DNA of 64,000 nucleotides from an uncultured Litoreibacter sp. (GTDB taxonomy: Bacteria; Pseudomonadota; Alphaproteobacteria; Rhodobacterales; Rhodobacteraceae): positions 310,001-374,000 of the forward strand of contig CANLQL010000003.1 in the NCBI GenBank assembly GCA_947493265.1. The letters are read 5' to 3'. Within the stretch, counting starts at the first letter, position 1. Every line of letters begins with the position of its first letter. Below, piece after piece: positions 1 to 4,338 of the stretch. The notes beneath the pieces are model-generated. The model was not told the DNA's origin and did no database searches. It worked only from the letters and a program-made list of their open reading frames with translations. Position numbers and translations under genes: made by a program.

Positions 1-575
1 TTGCGGCCACGCCTGCGGGGTGGTTCAGGATGGTTCTGCGGCCCACGCCTTCTGACCAGAAGTATTGTTCTGCCTTTGCATCTGATTTTGTGCGGGGAAA
101 TTTCCCCGGACAGAATTCCACCGCCACCAGCCGCGCGATTGCGGCCACGCCTGCGGGGTGGTTCAGGATGGTGTTGCGGCCCACGCCTTCTGACCAGAAC
201 ATTGCGTCAAACTTACCCTTGGATTGAGCGTTGTCACTTCTGGGAAATTTCCCAGAAGTCACATCCACCGCCACCAGCCGCGCGATTGCGGCCACGCCTG
301 CGGGATGGTTCAGGATGGTTCTGCGGCTGACACCATCAGCCCAGAATTTTCCTTCAAGGCGTTTATGCGGATCGTTTTGGGGAAATTTCCCCAAAACAAA
401 GTCCACCGCCACCAGCCGCGCGATTGCGGCCACGCCTGCGGGATGGTTCAGGATAGTTTTCCGGCCCACGCCTTCGGACCAAAACTGGTGTTCTGTGCGG
501 TCTTTTGAATTTGCGGTGGGAAATTTCCCACCGCAAAAGTCCACCGCCACCAGCCGCGCGATTGCGGCCACGCTG
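1..575. repeat. Tandem repeat array, 138-147 bp units, each with a GGGAAATTTCCC palindrome
   Basis: The shared block (ttgcggccacgcctgcggg and its flanks) recurs at 1, 139, 286, 424 and 562. Between the blocks lie four palindromes sharing the core GGGAAATTTCCC: 89-112 (24 bp, one mismatched pair), 236-259 (24 bp, perfect), 374-397 (24 bp, perfect) and 510-537 (28 bp, perfect). The arms outside the core differ between units but stay complementary within each unit. The array continues beyond the left edge. Confidence 0.9.
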
Positions 576-589
576 TCCAAGACGATCAA
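1..589 (-). CDS. Tandem-repeat protein of unknown function, partial (runs off left edge)
   Basis: I do not recognise this protein. The minus-strand frame is open for 196 codons from a TTG at 589-587 to the window edge, with no stop. The TTG overlaps the TGA of the upstream gene (TTGA, 586-589), and AAGGACGG lies just upstream, which suggests translational coupling. The product is a repeat of about 46 residues: FWSEGVGR, then TILNHPAGVAAIARLVAVD, then a variable linker containing GKFP. Unit spacings are 138, 147, 138 and 138 bp, all multiples of three. Differences between copies are largely synonymous in this frame (CAC/CAT, ACC/ACT, CGC/CGG, TTC/TTT, TCA/TCC, GGC/GGT, GTG/GTC) or conservative (E/D, R/K), so this frame appears to be the selected one. 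The first unit is truncated and lacks the FWSEGVGR segment. It is the last visible gene of the element's minus-strand operon. Confidence 0.7.
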   Translation of the reverse strand, partial: MIVLDSVAAIARLVAVDFCGGKFPTANSKDRTEHQFWSEGVGRKTILNHPAGVAAIARLVAVDFVLGKFPQNDPHKRLEGKFWADGVSRRTILNHPAGVAAIARLVAVDVTSGKFPRSDNAQSKGKFDAMFWSEGVGRNTILNHPAGVAAIARLVAVEFCPGKFPRTKSDAKAEQYFWSEGVGRRTILNHPAGVAA

Positions 590-870
590 GATGGGTTCCG
601 TCCTTTCCGTTCACGCATCGCGTGTGCTTGTTCCCGGACAACGCCCTGTGCGCCAATCAGGCGGCGGGTCAGTCCTTGAAGTTCCCTTTCCCGCTTCCGC
701 GTGTTGGCGTTCGCGGCCATCACGTGGAGTTCCGTTTCTGCAATTTCCAAACCCGTCAAAAGCTGCGGCGCGTGTGCCTTCGGAAACGTCACTTGCAGAT
801 ATTCCACCAACCCCGCGCCGTTCGCGTTTTTGATCTTTTCCAACGCCACTTGGGCGATTTGGTATTCCAT
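586..870 (-). CDS. Hypothetical protein of the integrative element
   Basis: This is a small protein of 94 residues with no recognised domain. I chose the ATG at 870 because GGAAGGAAAT lies just before it; the frame itself extends to 891. The sequence looks mostly helical: MEYQIAQVALEKIKNANG at the N-terminus, a central stretch rich in Leu, Glu and Ala, and a very basic C-terminus with RKRERE and RERKGR that could bind nucleic acid. Its TGA overlaps the TTG start of the tandem-repeat gene, so the two are probably translated together. It sits 26 bp after the stop of the helix-turn-helix gene at 896-1312, in the same transcription unit as the replication gene. No function is claimed. Confidence 0.6.
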   Translation of the reverse strand: MEYQIAQVALEKIKNANGAGLVEYLQVTFPKAHAPQLLTGLEIAETELHVMAANANTRKRERELQGLTRRLIGAQGVVREQAHAMRERKGRNPS

Positions 871-895
871 CGGATTTCCTTCCGTTTTCACCCGG

Positions 896-1312
896 CTATT
901 TTAGCCCGTCAGGGGCATCTTGGCCATCTGGGTGGGGACACAGAGCCGGAACTATAACGGGCCTGTGCGGGCCGTTTTGACAGGAGTTCGGTTTCATCGC
1001 GCGCTTGGTCCCATCGGGCAGCGTCACGATTTCCCCGGTGCGTTCCATTTCGGAAATGAGTTGGTCCAAGGGGTCAGCGTCCACCACCTTGGCCACCTGC
1101 GCCGCCCGTTCAACCGTCGCGCGGCTGACACCCCTTTCTTTGGCAATGGTCGCGGCTTCTTTTCCAAAGCCAGCCTCACTTTGAGGCTGGCTTTTCCCCT
1201 TCTGCGCACCGGCTTCCGCAAATGTCTTCTTCCGGCTTTCATGTGCGCGGCCCATGACCATGACGCGCTGTGCGTCGGTCAGGTTGCGCCGGGACAGTGG
1301 GTCAGGCTTCAT
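896..1312 (-). CDS. Small helix-turn-helix protein of the integrative element
   Basis: This is a protein of 138 residues. A plausible helix-turn-helix lies around residues 50-75 (EAATIAKERGVSRATVERA), resembling the DNA-binding segment of ParB/KorB-type and phage regulatory proteins. The N-terminus is basic (SRRNLTDAQRV), and the last third is proline-rich and looks disordered. Its ATG overlaps the TGA of the upstream gene (ATGA, 1309-1312). A perfect 13-bp inverted repeat with a 3-nt loop lies inside the gene at 1166-1194 and encodes the SQPQSEAGF segment just before the helix-turn-helix. It could be a regulator or partition-like factor of the element; the family assignment is tentative. Confidence 0.55.
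   Translation of the reverse strand: MKPDPLSRRNLTDAQRVMVMGRAHESRKKTFAEAGAQKGKSQPQSEAGFGKEAATIAKERGVSRATVERAAQVAKVVDADPLDQLISEMERTGEIVTLPDGTKRAMKPNSCQNGPHRPVIVPALCPHPDGQDAPDGLK
1166..1194. repeat. Perfect 13-bp inverted repeat inside a coding sequence
   Basis: The arms at 1166-1178 and 1182-1194 are exact reverse complements around a 3-nt loop (ctt). The dyad lies within the open frame of the helix-turn-helix gene, well away from its ends, so it is not a normal terminator position. It is the fifth coding-embedded palindrome in this element. Confidence 0.85.
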
Positions 1313-1695
1313 TGTGGCTTCTTCCCACCAGCCAAATAGGCGCTGACATCAACCGTGGACGGGTCAATGTGGCGAACTGGACCCGCCTTGGATTTCGGCC
1401 AGCGGTCCTTCTTTTTCTTCTTCTTTTTCGGATACGCCTTGGTGAAGGCCACATCTTGCAGGCGATTGGGAAGGCGCTTCGCCGCCTTCTTGGCCCTCTT
1501 CAAGCTGCCCTTGGGTTCGCCACTTATCTTGAAGCACCAGTCACTGACAGATTGCGCCCTGTTGACGGGTTCAAAGTTTAGCTTATCCACGTGCCGCCAC
1601 GCCTCACGCGACGTGGGGAAGTCCCCAGCGCTGACGCCACTGGCATGAATTACACGGTGCAGCCCGTTGGCCATTTGTTTAACGCGATAAGTCAT
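1309..1695 (-). CDS. Hypothetical basic protein of the integrative element
   Basis: This is a protein of 128 residues that I do not recognise. The N-terminal half (MTYRVKQMANGLHRVIHASG) could be a small alpha/beta domain. The C-terminal half is strongly basic, with a run of seven lysines after YP encoded by an A/T homopurine-homopyrimidine tract, followed by DRWPKSKAG. This suggests nucleic-acid binding or a disordered tail. It is coupled on both sides: its ATG shares a base with the stop of the replication gene (TGATG, 1693-1697), and its own stop overlaps the start of the next gene (ATGA). The lysine tract is a possible frameshift site. No function is assigned. Confidence 0.6.
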   Translation of the reverse strand: MTYRVKQMANGLHRVIHASGVSAGDFPTSREAWRHVDKLNFEPVNRAQSVSDWCFKISGEPKGSLKRAKKAAKRLPNRLQDVAFTKAYPKKKKKKKDRWPKSKAGPVRHIDPSTVDVSAYLAGGKKPQ

Positions 1696-2435
1696 CAGCT
1701 TGTCCTTTTCATTGCATTGTCCCGGCGTTGGTTCTTGGTGGATGGTTCGGGATTTTCACCCCCCCCGCCCCCTTCCGGGGGTGCCGTCACCGCTGACGCG
1801 ATGACGTGTAGTTTTTTTTGGCCAGTTTTTTGACGTTCCAGATAGTGATTGATGGGGTCATTGCTGGGGAATGGGATGACGATTTCGTCTGGCCCATCCG
1901 GCACGCGGCGCGCAGGGGCTGGTGACCAAGTGCTTGGATCATCCGTCTGGTCAATAACAGCCAAAGGCCCGCCTTTTTTTGGCGTAGTTATTAGGACGCC
2001 ATTTTGGCGCACTAGGGCGTGGTCATTTTGGCGCACTAGGGACGGATGTTTTTTTTGGTCAAATGGCGCACTAGGGAAAACGTCGTTTTGGCGCACTAGG
2101 GGACCCAGCGGATTACAGGCCCAAAGGCGGTCTACCGACAGGCCCCAGACTTCGTTTTTGAAGCCGTTTTGCATCGCCATGCGTTCCACGTAAATCCAGC
2201 CGCTGGACTTCAAGCTGGACTTCGCGCGGCTGACTGTGCGGGCTGCTTTTGGGGGCGACAGGTGGCTACCCAGCGTAGTATTGGATGCGTTGATCCCCAG
2301 CCCTTTGCTGTCCGCGTATTGGGCCATGGCCAGCATCACCGCACCATTGACCCCCGACACCTTGCCGCGCTCAATGTTGCCTCTGACAAGGCGCACCATC
2401 AGGCTAGACATCGCGCCCACCGTGTTGCTGATCAT
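1695..2435 (-). CDS. Helix-turn-helix replication initiator-like protein
   Basis: This is a protein of 246 residues. The N-terminal half matches the helix-turn-helix type found in phage and plasmid replication proteins (lambda O-like, helix_turn_helix_36): VNGAVMLAMAQYADSKGLG, then TTLGSHLSPPKAARTVSRA and LKSSGWIYVER. The middle contains LVRQN three times and one related copy, each encoded by an iteron-like 13-bp repeat at 2002-2101. The C-terminus is low complexity (PPEGGGGGENPEPS) and is encoded across a C8 tract, a possible slippage site. No strong Shine-Dalgarno sequence precedes the ATG at 2435; an internal ATG eight codons in is an alternative start. It heads the coupled operon down to the tandem-repeat gene. 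Role as the element's replication initiator is inferred from domain type and internal repeats. Confidence 0.65.
   Translation of the reverse strand: MISNTVGAMSSLMVRLVRGNIERGKVSGVNGAVMLAMAQYADSKGLGINASNTTLGSHLSPPKAARTVSRAKSSLKSSGWIYVERMAMQNGFKNEVWGLSVDRLWACNPLGPLVRQNDVFPSAPFDQKKHPSLVRQNDHALVRQNGVLITTPKKGGPLAVIDQTDDPSTWSPAPARRVPDGPDEIVIPFPSNDPINHYLERQKTGQKKLHVIASAVTAPPEGGGGGENPEPSTKNQRRDNAMKRTS
2002..2101. repeat. Four iteron-like direct repeats inside the replication gene (putative origin)
   Basis: The core TGGCGCACTAGGG occurs at 2005-2017, 2029-2041, 2064-2076 and 2089-2101. Three of the copies extend leftwards to TTTTGGCGCACTAGGG. An A/T-rich tract (2049-2063) lies between the second and third copies. 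The arrangement resembles lambda-type origins, where iterons lie within the initiator gene; the origin role is inferred. Confidence 0.6.
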
Positions 2436-2513
2436 CTGTGGATTTGATATTGTTCACGGGTCTATTCCTTGCACGGGATGCAAAGGCGCACGGCGGGAAC
2501 CGCGCGCAGATTT

Positions 2514-2543
2514 AAGACCCCCACCAGCAATGGCGGGGGTCTT
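2514..2543 (-). terminator. Hairpin terminator after the excisionase gene
   Basis: A 9-bp stem (AAGACCCCC at 2514-2522 with GGGGGTCTT at 2535-2543) begins three bases beyond the stop of the AlpA-like gene. The stem is symmetric and could act in both directions. On the minus strand the downstream tail is only TTAAATC, so efficiency is uncertain. Confidence 0.6.
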
Positions 2544-2545
2544 TC

Positions 2546-2803
2546 TTATTGGGCGGCGGTGCGTTGGTTTTTGGGAACGTAGTTCCAGTTGACCTTGCCA
2601 CGTGGAAGCGCGGTCATCGCGGCTTCCAGTTCGCTTTCCAGCCAGAACAGACGGCCATCTGAAACGACAGGATCGGGCCACATGTCCGTTTCTTTGCATT
2701 GCTTCAAGAACGTGTTGCGGGACACGCCAACTCTTGCAGCCGCGTCATTGACGGCCAGAAGCCGTTCAGGCTTGGTTTGCAGGTCATTTTCGGTGACAGC
2801 CAT
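2546..2803 (-). CDS. AlpA/MerR-like excisionase
   Basis: This is a protein of 85 residues counted from the ATG at 2803, which is preceded by AAAGGGACTC; the frame is open to 2842 with weaker starts. The core LLAVNDAAARVGVSRNTFLK is the winged helix-turn-helix of AlpA/excisionase proteins, followed by DPVVSDGRLFWLESELEAA, the usual pattern where a recognition helix is followed by a strand and a tryptophan-containing segment. It lies between the integrase and replication genes, as expected for a recombination directionality factor that assists excision and may regulate the integrase or replication operon. It is followed immediately by a hairpin terminator. The exact role (excisionase or regulator) is inferred from family and location. 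Confidence 0.75.
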   Translation of the reverse strand: MAVTENDLQTKPERLLAVNDAAARVGVSRNTFLKQCKETDMWPDPVVSDGRLFWLESELEAAMTALPRGKVNWNYVPKNQRTAAQ

Positions 2804-3003
2804 TTGAGTCCCTTTCATTGGGGTTTCGTCATGGCTGAACATTTATGGTGGGATTTTGATGGTGAACAATAGGTGCAGATTGGACCGGGTTGATGGTCAA
2901 GAATGGTCTTTTGGACCGTCTAGTAATCAGGGATTGTCAGGGGGTGTCAGGCGGGCGGCAAAAAAAATGAGTGTAGCCCAAATTTTCTGCCACCTGTGAG
3001 CGA

Positions 3004-4338
3004 TTATCCGCGCATATGCGCCCGCTGGCTAAAGGAAACCACCCCAGTGCTGTCCGGGCTGATCCGCGTTGCTTCCGGGGTCCGACCAGTAACCCAGTCT
3101 GCCCACAGCGCTCCAATCACCCGCCGCTTATCCAAGAACAGCCGTGATTTTGGCTTCTTCCTGTATGCGTCATTAACTTTGTTCCAGAACTTGTGGTGCA
3201 GACACCACTCCACTTCATTGTCTAAGCCTTCCAGTTTGTCATCCGCCCATTCCCGGAACGTAGACCGGAAACCATGGTTGACCGGGTTGCGCCCACAGAT
3301 GGCTTTGATGTTGATGTGTTCCAGACGCTGGTTTAGCGCCTGACTGGTCAGCACCGCCCCGCGCCCGTCCGGGTTGGTCATTATGTGATCCACATTCCCA
3401 TTTATATCATACAAACGGCGCAGCACGTCCATGGCGGCGTCCGTCAGCGGGATGGTGAAGTCCCCACGGTCTTTAACTTTCAGATGCGCGGCTGGGATGC
3501 ACCATTCCTGCGCGTCCCAATCGAATTCATCCCAAGTTGCCTTTTGCAAGGACCCTACCCTTGTGACGGTCAGACATTGCAGTTGAAGGATCAGGTCTGA
3601 CACCTGTTCTGTCTTGTATTGAGGCCAAACGCTGGCAATGTCGCGGTAACCCATAGCTGGGTTGCCCTTCATTGCGTCATCTTTCTGTGGGGCAGCATCA
3701 TTAGGCAGGCCATTGTCCAACAGCCATTTGCGCCTATCCCGCCACATTTGGGCGTCAATCCCATGGGGGTTGTCAGGTTCCAACATGCGGGCGTGGTCCA
3801 TACACTGTGCGAAGCGCTCTATCGTCTTGATGGCCATGTTGCCTTCACCGGGACACTGGCGATAGTAACCCAGAAACACTTCACCAAGCTGCGCCCAAGT
3901 CAATTCCCAGACCAGACAGTCACCCCAGTTTGGAACAATCAGCCTGTCCAATGAAGCCCGCCAAGCCTTGGCATCTTTGCTTTCAATATTGGAATATTTC
4001 AGCCTGACCTTGGCGTCCAAAATAGCCGCGAAGGTGTAGTCATATTGAGTTGTTTTTTGGGGCGGGGAAATGGCGTGTTGAAGGGCAGTCTTGCCGTCTG
4101 TGCCATCCAAGATGTTCTGAAAGGTCTGGGTGGCGATGTCTTGCGCCCTGTCCCAGCCATAAACTGATAGCGCACCAATGGTCAGAAGAAGCGGTTGGCC
4201 ATTCACAGACTTTTTGAACAACCACGATTTACTGGAACCCTTCGCCGTGGCTCGAATTCGAAGCACCAGTCCGTCATTCCCGGCATAGTCGCCGGGCTTG
4301 TTCCCTTGAAGCACCTTGTGAGTGATTTTCTTTGCCAT
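3004..4338 (-). CDS. Tyrosine integrase (P4-like)
   Basis: This is a site-specific recombinase of 444 residues, the usual size for P4-type integrases. The N-terminal arm-binding region resembles the DUF4102 fold (NDGLVLRIRATAKGSSKSWLF), a central SAM-like core-binding region follows, and the catalytic domain comes after about residue 235. Visible catalytic elements are the first Arg (TVTRVGSL), the Lys hairpin (LKVKDRGDFTIPL), the HxxR box (NHGFRSTFREWAD), a His-rich segment (LHHKFW) and the nucleophile Tyr (NDAYRKK). It is at the right end of the element and transcribed into it. Four GTTACCA repeats lie just upstream and are good candidates for arm-type sites or promoter operators. The long C-terminal tail after the Tyr is typical of the family. 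Confidence 0.92.
   Translation of the reverse strand: MAKKITHKVLQGNKPGDYAGNDGLVLRIRATAKGSSKSWLFKKSVNGQPLLLTIGALSVYGWDRAQDIATQTFQNILDGTDGKTALQHAISPPQKTTQYDYTFAAILDAKVRLKYSNIESKDAKAWRASLDRLIVPNWGDCLVWELTWAQLGEVFLGYYRQCPGEGNMAIKTIERFAQCMDHARMLEPDNPHGIDAQMWRDRRKWLLDNGLPNDAAPQKDDAMKGNPAMGYRDIASVWPQYKTEQVSDLILQLQCLTVTRVGSLQKATWDEFDWDAQEWCIPAAHLKVKDRGDFTIPLTDAAMDVLRRLYDINGNVDHIMTNPDGRGAVLTSQALNQRLEHINIKAICGRNPVNHGFRSTFREWADDKLEGLDNEVEWCLHHKFWNKVNDAYRKKPKSRLFLDKRRVIGALWADWVTGRTPEATRISPDSTGVVSFSQRAHMRG

Follow-up and report, generated by a model that had tools for sequence, protein, structure and literature searches.

How can one stretch of DNA encode a repeat protein and also keep long palindromes whose arms differ from one repeat to the next and still pair? 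The question is raised by a tandem-repeat gene at the left edge of the window, the whole stretch of 64,000 nucleotides analysed here, from an uncultured Litoreibacter sp. Hairpin-forming DNA that shares its letters with a protein code is an uncommon case, and when arms covary, this is often regarded as the strongest sign that an RNA or DNA structure is under selection. Here the covariation lies inside a protein code, between copies with nearly unchanged flanks, and so this case allows a test of whether hairpin-templated copying is by itself enough to produce covariation. It also illustrates how copying of this kind could alter several residues of a protein loop in one go, and how, in a mobile element, a single part of a ParB gene can become a repeat protein. 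The reading that we prefer, tentatively and at somewhat below an even chance, is that a ParB-like segment was amplified, that the core of its palindrome is maintained for the sake of the protein and probably as a DNA sequence too, and that the arms, lying in a tolerant loop, are copied from one another at hairpins.

The gene consists of five tandem units that make up 240 codons and a stop, and the genome continues it past the window edge (Table 1). Its minus-strand frame, which a preliminary description made from the letters of the window had called open for 196 codons, is indeed open to that edge. Among the six frames, only this sense frame is free of internal stops; two antisense frames contain just two stops each. 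The start codon, TTG, overlaps the stop of the upstream ORF as TTGA. From unit 1 to unit 5 the lengths are 138, 138, 147, 138 and 138 nt (46 or 49 codons), and so multiples of three as described. Judged from sequence, expression of the gene is putative. A frameshift slippery site at the core was considered and rejected, the reading phase being, by reading, wrong for -1 slippage.

Table 1. Features of the array gene and its surroundings (window positions unless a contig or locus is named)
Feature	Position	Strand	Remarks
Window part of five-unit repeat gene	1..589	(-)	134 nt more outside window to stop
Unit 5	genome C3:309873-310010		outside window except its first 10 nt
Unit 4 (46 codons)	11..148	(-)	
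Unit 3 (49 codons)	149..295	(-)	
Unit 2 (46 codons)	296..433	(-)	
Unit 1 (VAAI..NHPAG, 46 codons)	434..571	(-)	
Unit 4 palindrome, 24-mer	89..112		one mismatched pair; core 95-106
Unit 3 palindrome, perfect 24-mer	236..259		core 242-253; one mismatch, then three more pairs
Unit 2 palindrome, perfect 24-mer	374..397		core 380-391
Unit 1 palindrome, perfect 28-mer	510..537		core 518-529 = GGG AAA TTT CCC on minus strand (GKFP)
101-aa ORF upstream of array	586..891	(-)	weak relative, 28%, E 6e-5, in G353 element
138-aa ORF	896..1312	(-)	weak match, ParB-like PHROG phrog_4715, E 0.0058
128-aa ORF	1309..1695	(-)	
246-aa protein	1695..2435	(-)	weak match to phage replication initiators, best E 0.00024
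98-aa excisionase-like protein	2546..2842	(-)	phrog_2790
Tyrosine integrase of element	3004..4338	(-)	
Compact integrated element	L004:9364-17870 + window 586-4338		integrase, excisionase-like, portal, protease-capsid fusion; extent approximate
Five TTCCC direct repeats	C3:308762-308806 (L004:16762-16806)		exact 10-bp steps; outside window

The origin of the units is indicated by one relative. A four-unit profile was run on a genome collection, where 25 stretches matched the pattern and one was confirmed: a single unit at residues 105-150 of a 379-aa ParB_N protein of an uncultured Tateyamaria sp. (Rhodobacterales). In this homologue the ParB N-terminal domain is matched at E 2.7e-07, and the array is 57-66% identical to its residues 93-150, with matching ends (LDSVAAI at the start, NHPAG at the end). 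No ParB_N domain was found in the array (Pfam scan of the window part), and no similarity to the rest of the homologue's gene better than E 0.48 occurs in the surrounding 82 kb. A single-unit ParB_N homologue, matching ends and no other ParB part imply tandem amplification, and going by these alignments the segment that comes after the ParB_N domain and the ENLxR motif has been multiplied five-fold in the array. In the canonical ParB layout, the segment after the ENLxR motif is a helix-turn-helix. Low-confidence structure models (mean pLDDT 53.3 and 44.5) predict some three helices in each unit and place GKFP between helices one and two; on these models the unit would be a helix-turn-helix, and the palindrome would lie where its first helix turns into the second.

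The four palindromes of the window lie where the preliminary description had placed them and are as perfect as it had said, and the next longest perfect palindrome in the window measures 18 nt. A fifth core lies 33-44 nt left of the window's first base, in a palindrome of 16 nt only. The 12-nt core, GGGAAATTTCCC, encodes Gly-Lys-Phe-Pro and is identical in all six copies (five units and the homologue); arm complementarity is reduced or lost in two of the six, unit 5 and the homologue. Pairing runs unbroken outward from the core for 8, 6 and 6 pairs in units 1-3 and then breaks, and over the first eight arm positions units 1 to 5 pair at 8, 7, 7, 6 and 2. The homologue keeps the core but pairs at none of the first three arm positions. 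That all five units should write the core as GGG AAA TTT CCC has a probability of 5.7e-7 under local codon usage, codons being assumed free, and the core forms an island that is identical while most neighbouring positions differ. Its conservation points to a constraint at the DNA level besides the protein, on the assumption that gene conversion does not keep the island alike. The earlier reading of two constraints on one stretch of DNA, protein and self-complementarity, is well supported.

These palindromes might be in-frame mobile elements of the Rickettsia kind that were inserted into the gene, a candidate of the preliminary description that would fit their place in frame within a variable, probably exposed stretch. 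However, the single-copy homologue has the same GKFP segment in the same place, and so there is no insertion relative to it; a distant plasmid ParB also aligns EFPKR opposite KFPKQ. In the 3.52-Mb genome the core occurs seven times, five of them in the array, and the two cores elsewhere are single sites whose flanks pair at 2/10 and 7/10, neither contiguously from the core. This candidate is disfavoured, and we regard it as very improbable. At the second of these sites (L025:4911, contig C5 of the same genome) the core codes for GKFP in an unrelated gene and is followed by EAQGVLDFW; none of its seven complementary flanking positions adjoins the core, and the site is probably due to chance.

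The claim that the arms differ between units and are nevertheless self-complementary was borne out beyond chance, with 30 of 40 positions paired. When right arms were permuted among the units, the true pairing alone of 120 arrangements reached 30, and the best of the 44 derangements reached 17. Arms taken from different units pair at 12.5/40 on average (10 if unbiased) and never at more than 5/8 for any two, and codons drawn from local usage give 10.6 on average and never more than 26 in 2,000,000 draws. The covariation score over the units and the homologue is 0.550, against 0.180 in shuffles, none of 500 of which scored as high, and it falls to 0.18 or less when the register is slid. The count of pairs changed on both sides, a weak measure with six sequences, is 6 against 4.3 in shuffles, and 89/500 shuffles reach 6. 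Arms that vary without keeping complementarity, which the preliminary description had named as evidence against its reading, are found in part: the homologue pairs at 4/8 and unit 5 at 2/8. As a control, none of the 21 further 12-nt palindromes in the surrounding 82 kb extends by more than three pairs; on average 2.0/8 of their flanking positions pair, as by chance, and 16 12-nt palindromes in other loci show no extension.

A by-product of biased codons, with T-rich left and A-rich right arms, could lift the pairing of different-unit arms above 10/40, as seen. Neither this nor plain chance accounts for a true pairing that stands alone among the permutations, for the ceiling of 5/8 between units or for a covariation score that no shuffle matched, and we consider such an origin hardly credible. 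Left arms tend to hydrophobic residues and right arms to hydrophilic ones, with a slight rise in pairing. In the terms used in the accessible part of one earlier study (PMC6649704), the pairing is phase 2, with second codon positions opposed, so that where the left arm is hydrophobic the right arm tends to be constrained to hydrophilic residues; such a pair would suit a helix end with an exposed linker after it.

Change is unevenly spread along the unit. The first shared block (block A, 10 codons) shows no differences among the five units, the 12-nt left arms differ between units at 6-8 positions, and block C (FW..NHPAG, 51 nt) differs at 2-11 nt. The linker measures 33 or 42 nt in the units and 30 nt in the homologue, and in 14 of 15 linker pairs, the homologue included, similarity does not exceed that of codon shuffles at p < 0.05; the linkers of units 1 and 5 are the sole exception (p 0.004). 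Capture of foreign DNA as a source of linkers was rejected, the longest matches in the 82 kb being 10-15 nt with one 15-mer and otherwise shuffle-like. It had been said that differences in the shared block are mainly synonymous, which is too strong, since the FW..NHPAG block has 28 synonymous and 26 other differences summed over ten unit pairs. Units 3 and 4 differ at 0/30 and 2/51 nt in the shared blocks, with no synonymous change in 27 codons, and yet at 7/12 nt in their left arms, with linkers that are unalike. Near-identical flanks with unlike arms suggest multi-base events rather than slow compensatory substitution. Change is concentrated in the arms and linker and probably proceeds by multi-base steps, unless gene conversion refreshes the shared blocks only, which could make the arms seem younger than they are.

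Such a pattern is what the preferred reading, copying of one arm from the other, would lead us to expect. The core would be retained for the Gly-Lys-Phe-Pro that it encodes, with a probable second constraint at the level of DNA, and the arms would sit in a loop that tolerates almost any residue. Now and then, during replication, the core would fold into a hairpin and one arm would be copied from the other, by template switching or by hairpin repair, with no selection for a particular arm sequence. If the core forms a hairpin in which arm templates arm, the arms change together and several bases at once. According to the available parts of the papers concerned, template switching homogenises inverted-repeat arms in yeast coding genes, with several amino-acid changes at once (PMC8604942), and has been proposed to keep RNA-gene hairpins paired (PMC8794818) and to convert arms in nematomorph mitochondria (PMC6649704).

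Several observations speak against template switching, a candidate that the preliminary description had raised and that we nevertheless prefer. None of the 21 other 12-nt palindromes in the 82 kb extends by at least four pairs, so that a general process acting on any short palindrome is not seen here, and the arms of unit 5 and of the homologue stand uncorrected. Nor is the core supported as a special seed for long palindromes. In viral contigs, its 14-nt form, TGGGAAATTTCCCA, extends by at least four pairs at 8 of 66 distinct sites among the matches listed, compared with 11 of 90 for other 14-nt palindromes. For this comparison 80 of at least 120 stretches were taken, sites near locus ends were dropped and 85 occurrences were reduced to 66, while the control keeps duplicates. 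Some viral contigs do carry the same core with long, mutually different arms that are partly or fully complementary (L100:315 and 564, L091:3384 and L107:9140); the two sites on L100 lie 249 nt apart.

The unextended nearby palindromes, the lack of a special seed and the uncorrected arms make selection on the hairpins themselves a real rival, although on balance we think it rather unlikely. Under this alternative, hairpins of mRNA, antisense RNA or single-stranded DNA would be recognised by their apical GGGAAAUUUCCC, and the stem would be free to change as long as selection kept it paired. Recognised hairpins usually look like this, with a fixed apical part on a stem that covaries, and the codon identity of the core in all five units would fit. 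Predicted folds are of -19.8 to -24.9 kcal/mol for units 1-3 on both strands and of -16.7 (sense) and -21.0 (antisense) for unit 4, but weaker for unit 5 (-14.8 sense, -13.3 antisense), where a second GGGAAA five bases past the core competes in the predicted fold, and for the homologue (-14.8 and -18.2); these two copies lack most arm pairs and yet keep the core. Potential G-U mismatches were seen, by reading, on either strand, and so neither strand is favoured. No Rfam family reached its cut-off; two matches fell below it, the better being a microRNA hairpin model at unit 1 (E 0.011; 24.7 bits, cut-off 100). Around the array, promoter-like and terminator-like sites do not exceed the level of shuffled sequences.

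The core may instead be a double-stranded binding site, two inverted TTTCCC half-sites read by a helix-turn-helix protein that the element encodes and that may be the array product. In our view this explanation, under which the palindromes serve as operator, handcuffing or centromere-like sites within the gene and the arms are secondary, is unlikely. It would account for a core kept in six of six copies and for the clustering of five of its seven genomic copies in the array, and in known ParB proteins palindromes are bound by the segment behind the ParB_N domain, the segment to which the units are homologous. It also draws on the five TTCCC direct repeats nearby (52 bp before a 164-aa plus-strand ORF; the array gene ends 1.06 kb away, and the nearest core is at a distance of 1.15 kb), whose three-copy pattern is confined to this site in the 3.52-Mb genome. 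However, it leaves the sustained arm complementarity unexplained; the homologue's loci have one full core and no triple TTCCC repeat; and a spacing of 138-147 bp is long for iterons. No such repeats were found in the related loci L005, L031, L034 and L074. The 164-aa ORF has a weak ParB-like or helix-turn-helix match (E 0.11), and neither it nor the 138-aa ORF has an NCBIfam match. Taken together, the repeats, the inverted TTTCCC cores and the weak matches of the neighbours suggest that a protein of the element may read TTTCCC. A further step, which we consider improbable, is that the five-unit helix-turn-helix protein reads the TTCCC repeats, spaced by one turn at a single site, in a private code, TTTCCC, while its own gene carries the five inverted half-site pairs as covarying hairpin or cruciform palindromes and is thereby at once message, site array and autoregulator. 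A likeness to the Noc binding site was set aside, because the string taken for that site was not found in the accessible text of the literature checked, including PMC7333895 and PMC8429893.

The array belongs to an integrated element with integrase, excisionase-like, portal and protease-capsid fusion genes and a weak replication-initiator match. Within the 246-aa replication-like gene are four short direct repeats, TGGCGCACTAGGG, at window 2005-2102, which are possible iterons. Two related regions have the portal, the capsid and two further genes in common with this element, the portal and capsid genes being 66-71% identical. One, in a genome of the same family (L031), showed neither the ParB homologue nor the core; it contains a 1128-aa frame that resembles, by reading, a tape measure protein. 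The other adjoins the Tateyamaria ParB gene (L005), near which a second integrase lies beside tRNA-Ser, so that this ParB may belong to the capsid element or to its neighbour. Between the Tateyamaria ParB gene and the capsid genes lies a homing-endonuclease-like protein (L005:4873-6309; phrog_314, E 3.5e-12), by reading of the GIY-YIG type with repeated modules. Capsid-bearing satellites of the cfPICI-like kind have integrase, AlpA, replication and capsid genes without the full gene set of a phage. The element here has matches for integrase, the excisionase-like protein that we take to be AlpA, replication (weakly) and capsid genes, and may be a candidate for this kind.

Comparison of the array with known families gave matches below cut-off in Pfam for the window part (five families at E up to 1), in NCBIfam for the whole array (three, each falling far short of its cut-off), in PHROGs (six families of unknown function, the best at E 0.00039, with no single stretch that passed) and in PADLOC (one homing endonuclease model, E 0.0027); none of these, nor those from Rfam, is taken as homology. 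Plasmids and phages gave no match to the 196-aa array as protein or to the whole array as distant DNA. The ParB_N homologue matched 4 phage and 16 plasmid records at 25-39% identity, mostly in its N-terminal part. Viral contigs yielded no relative of the array, the translations around 7 and 28 pattern matches looking unrelated. Whole-genome scans returned the array's own genome only (1/101, 1/394 with at most four candidates per genome scored, 1/21 and 1/385). In another 394-genome scan 12 passed E 0.05, its own genome and 11 weak matches, at none of whose loci the core was present; the one inspected was unrelated. The homologue's own genome was the single hit among 61 genomes, and among 225 there were two, the second a 19-position match in a 992-aa frame. 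These searches cover part of the known genomes, and more homologues may exist.

How does the array compare with known systems? The preliminary description knew no family with this combination. This was wrong in part, as PARCELs, intragenic tandem repeat coding sequences with dyad symmetry, have been described (PMC2996958); a ParB-derived array was not found in the accessible text of the literature searched on coding palindromes and template switching. The array, too, is tandem-repeat coding DNA with dyad symmetry and has mobile-element genes around it. As far as the available part of that account goes, PARCELs are linked to mobile elements in some taxa, alternate conserved with hypervariable residues and have palindromes of unknown meaning (PMC2996958). 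PARCEL domains are amphipathic and helical; for the array, the low-confidence model predicts roughly three helices in a unit. By the same account, however, their unit is of 25 residues, for the most part recognised by DUF285 and TIGR02167, with imperfect, statistically derived palindromes, whereas the array has ParB-type units of 46-49 residues and differing arms that are perfect in three of five units around a fixed core; DUF285 was not among its Pfam matches (window part), nor TIGR02167 among its NCBIfam matches (whole array).

Other precedents share single features with the array. In the part of the nematomorph study available, long palindromes in mitochondrial ORFs are kept perfect, arm conversion by template switching being proposed, but they reach up to 284 bp and lie in mitochondrial protein genes, as opposed to 24-28 nt with a fixed core in a repeat gene (PMC6649704). 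For the inverted repeats of yeast, the proposed mechanism is alike, equalising arms in one event with several amino-acid changes; as presented in the accessible text, the evidence there consists of strain phylogenies, and that for the array is inference from the units of one gene (PMC8604942). Rickettsia palindromic elements likewise place palindromic DNA in frame within coding sequence (PMC2996958, PMC6649704, in their available parts). They are insertions in assorted genes, whereas the palindromes of the array are an original part of the gene, amplified with it; the segment is present in the one homologue found, and no dispersed copies were seen, the core occurring only twice outside the array. 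Within the ParB/Spo0J family, the unit is homologous to the segment after ParB_N, and the array itself is without that domain. The origin of phage lambda lies inside gene O, where repeated dyad-symmetric sites occur in coding sequence as close-packed iterons. The array similarly has dyad sites in phage-type coding sequence, but at a spacing of 138-147 bp. Among coding palindromes, the array is distinct by its fixed core, its perfect covarying arms and its traceable ParB origin.
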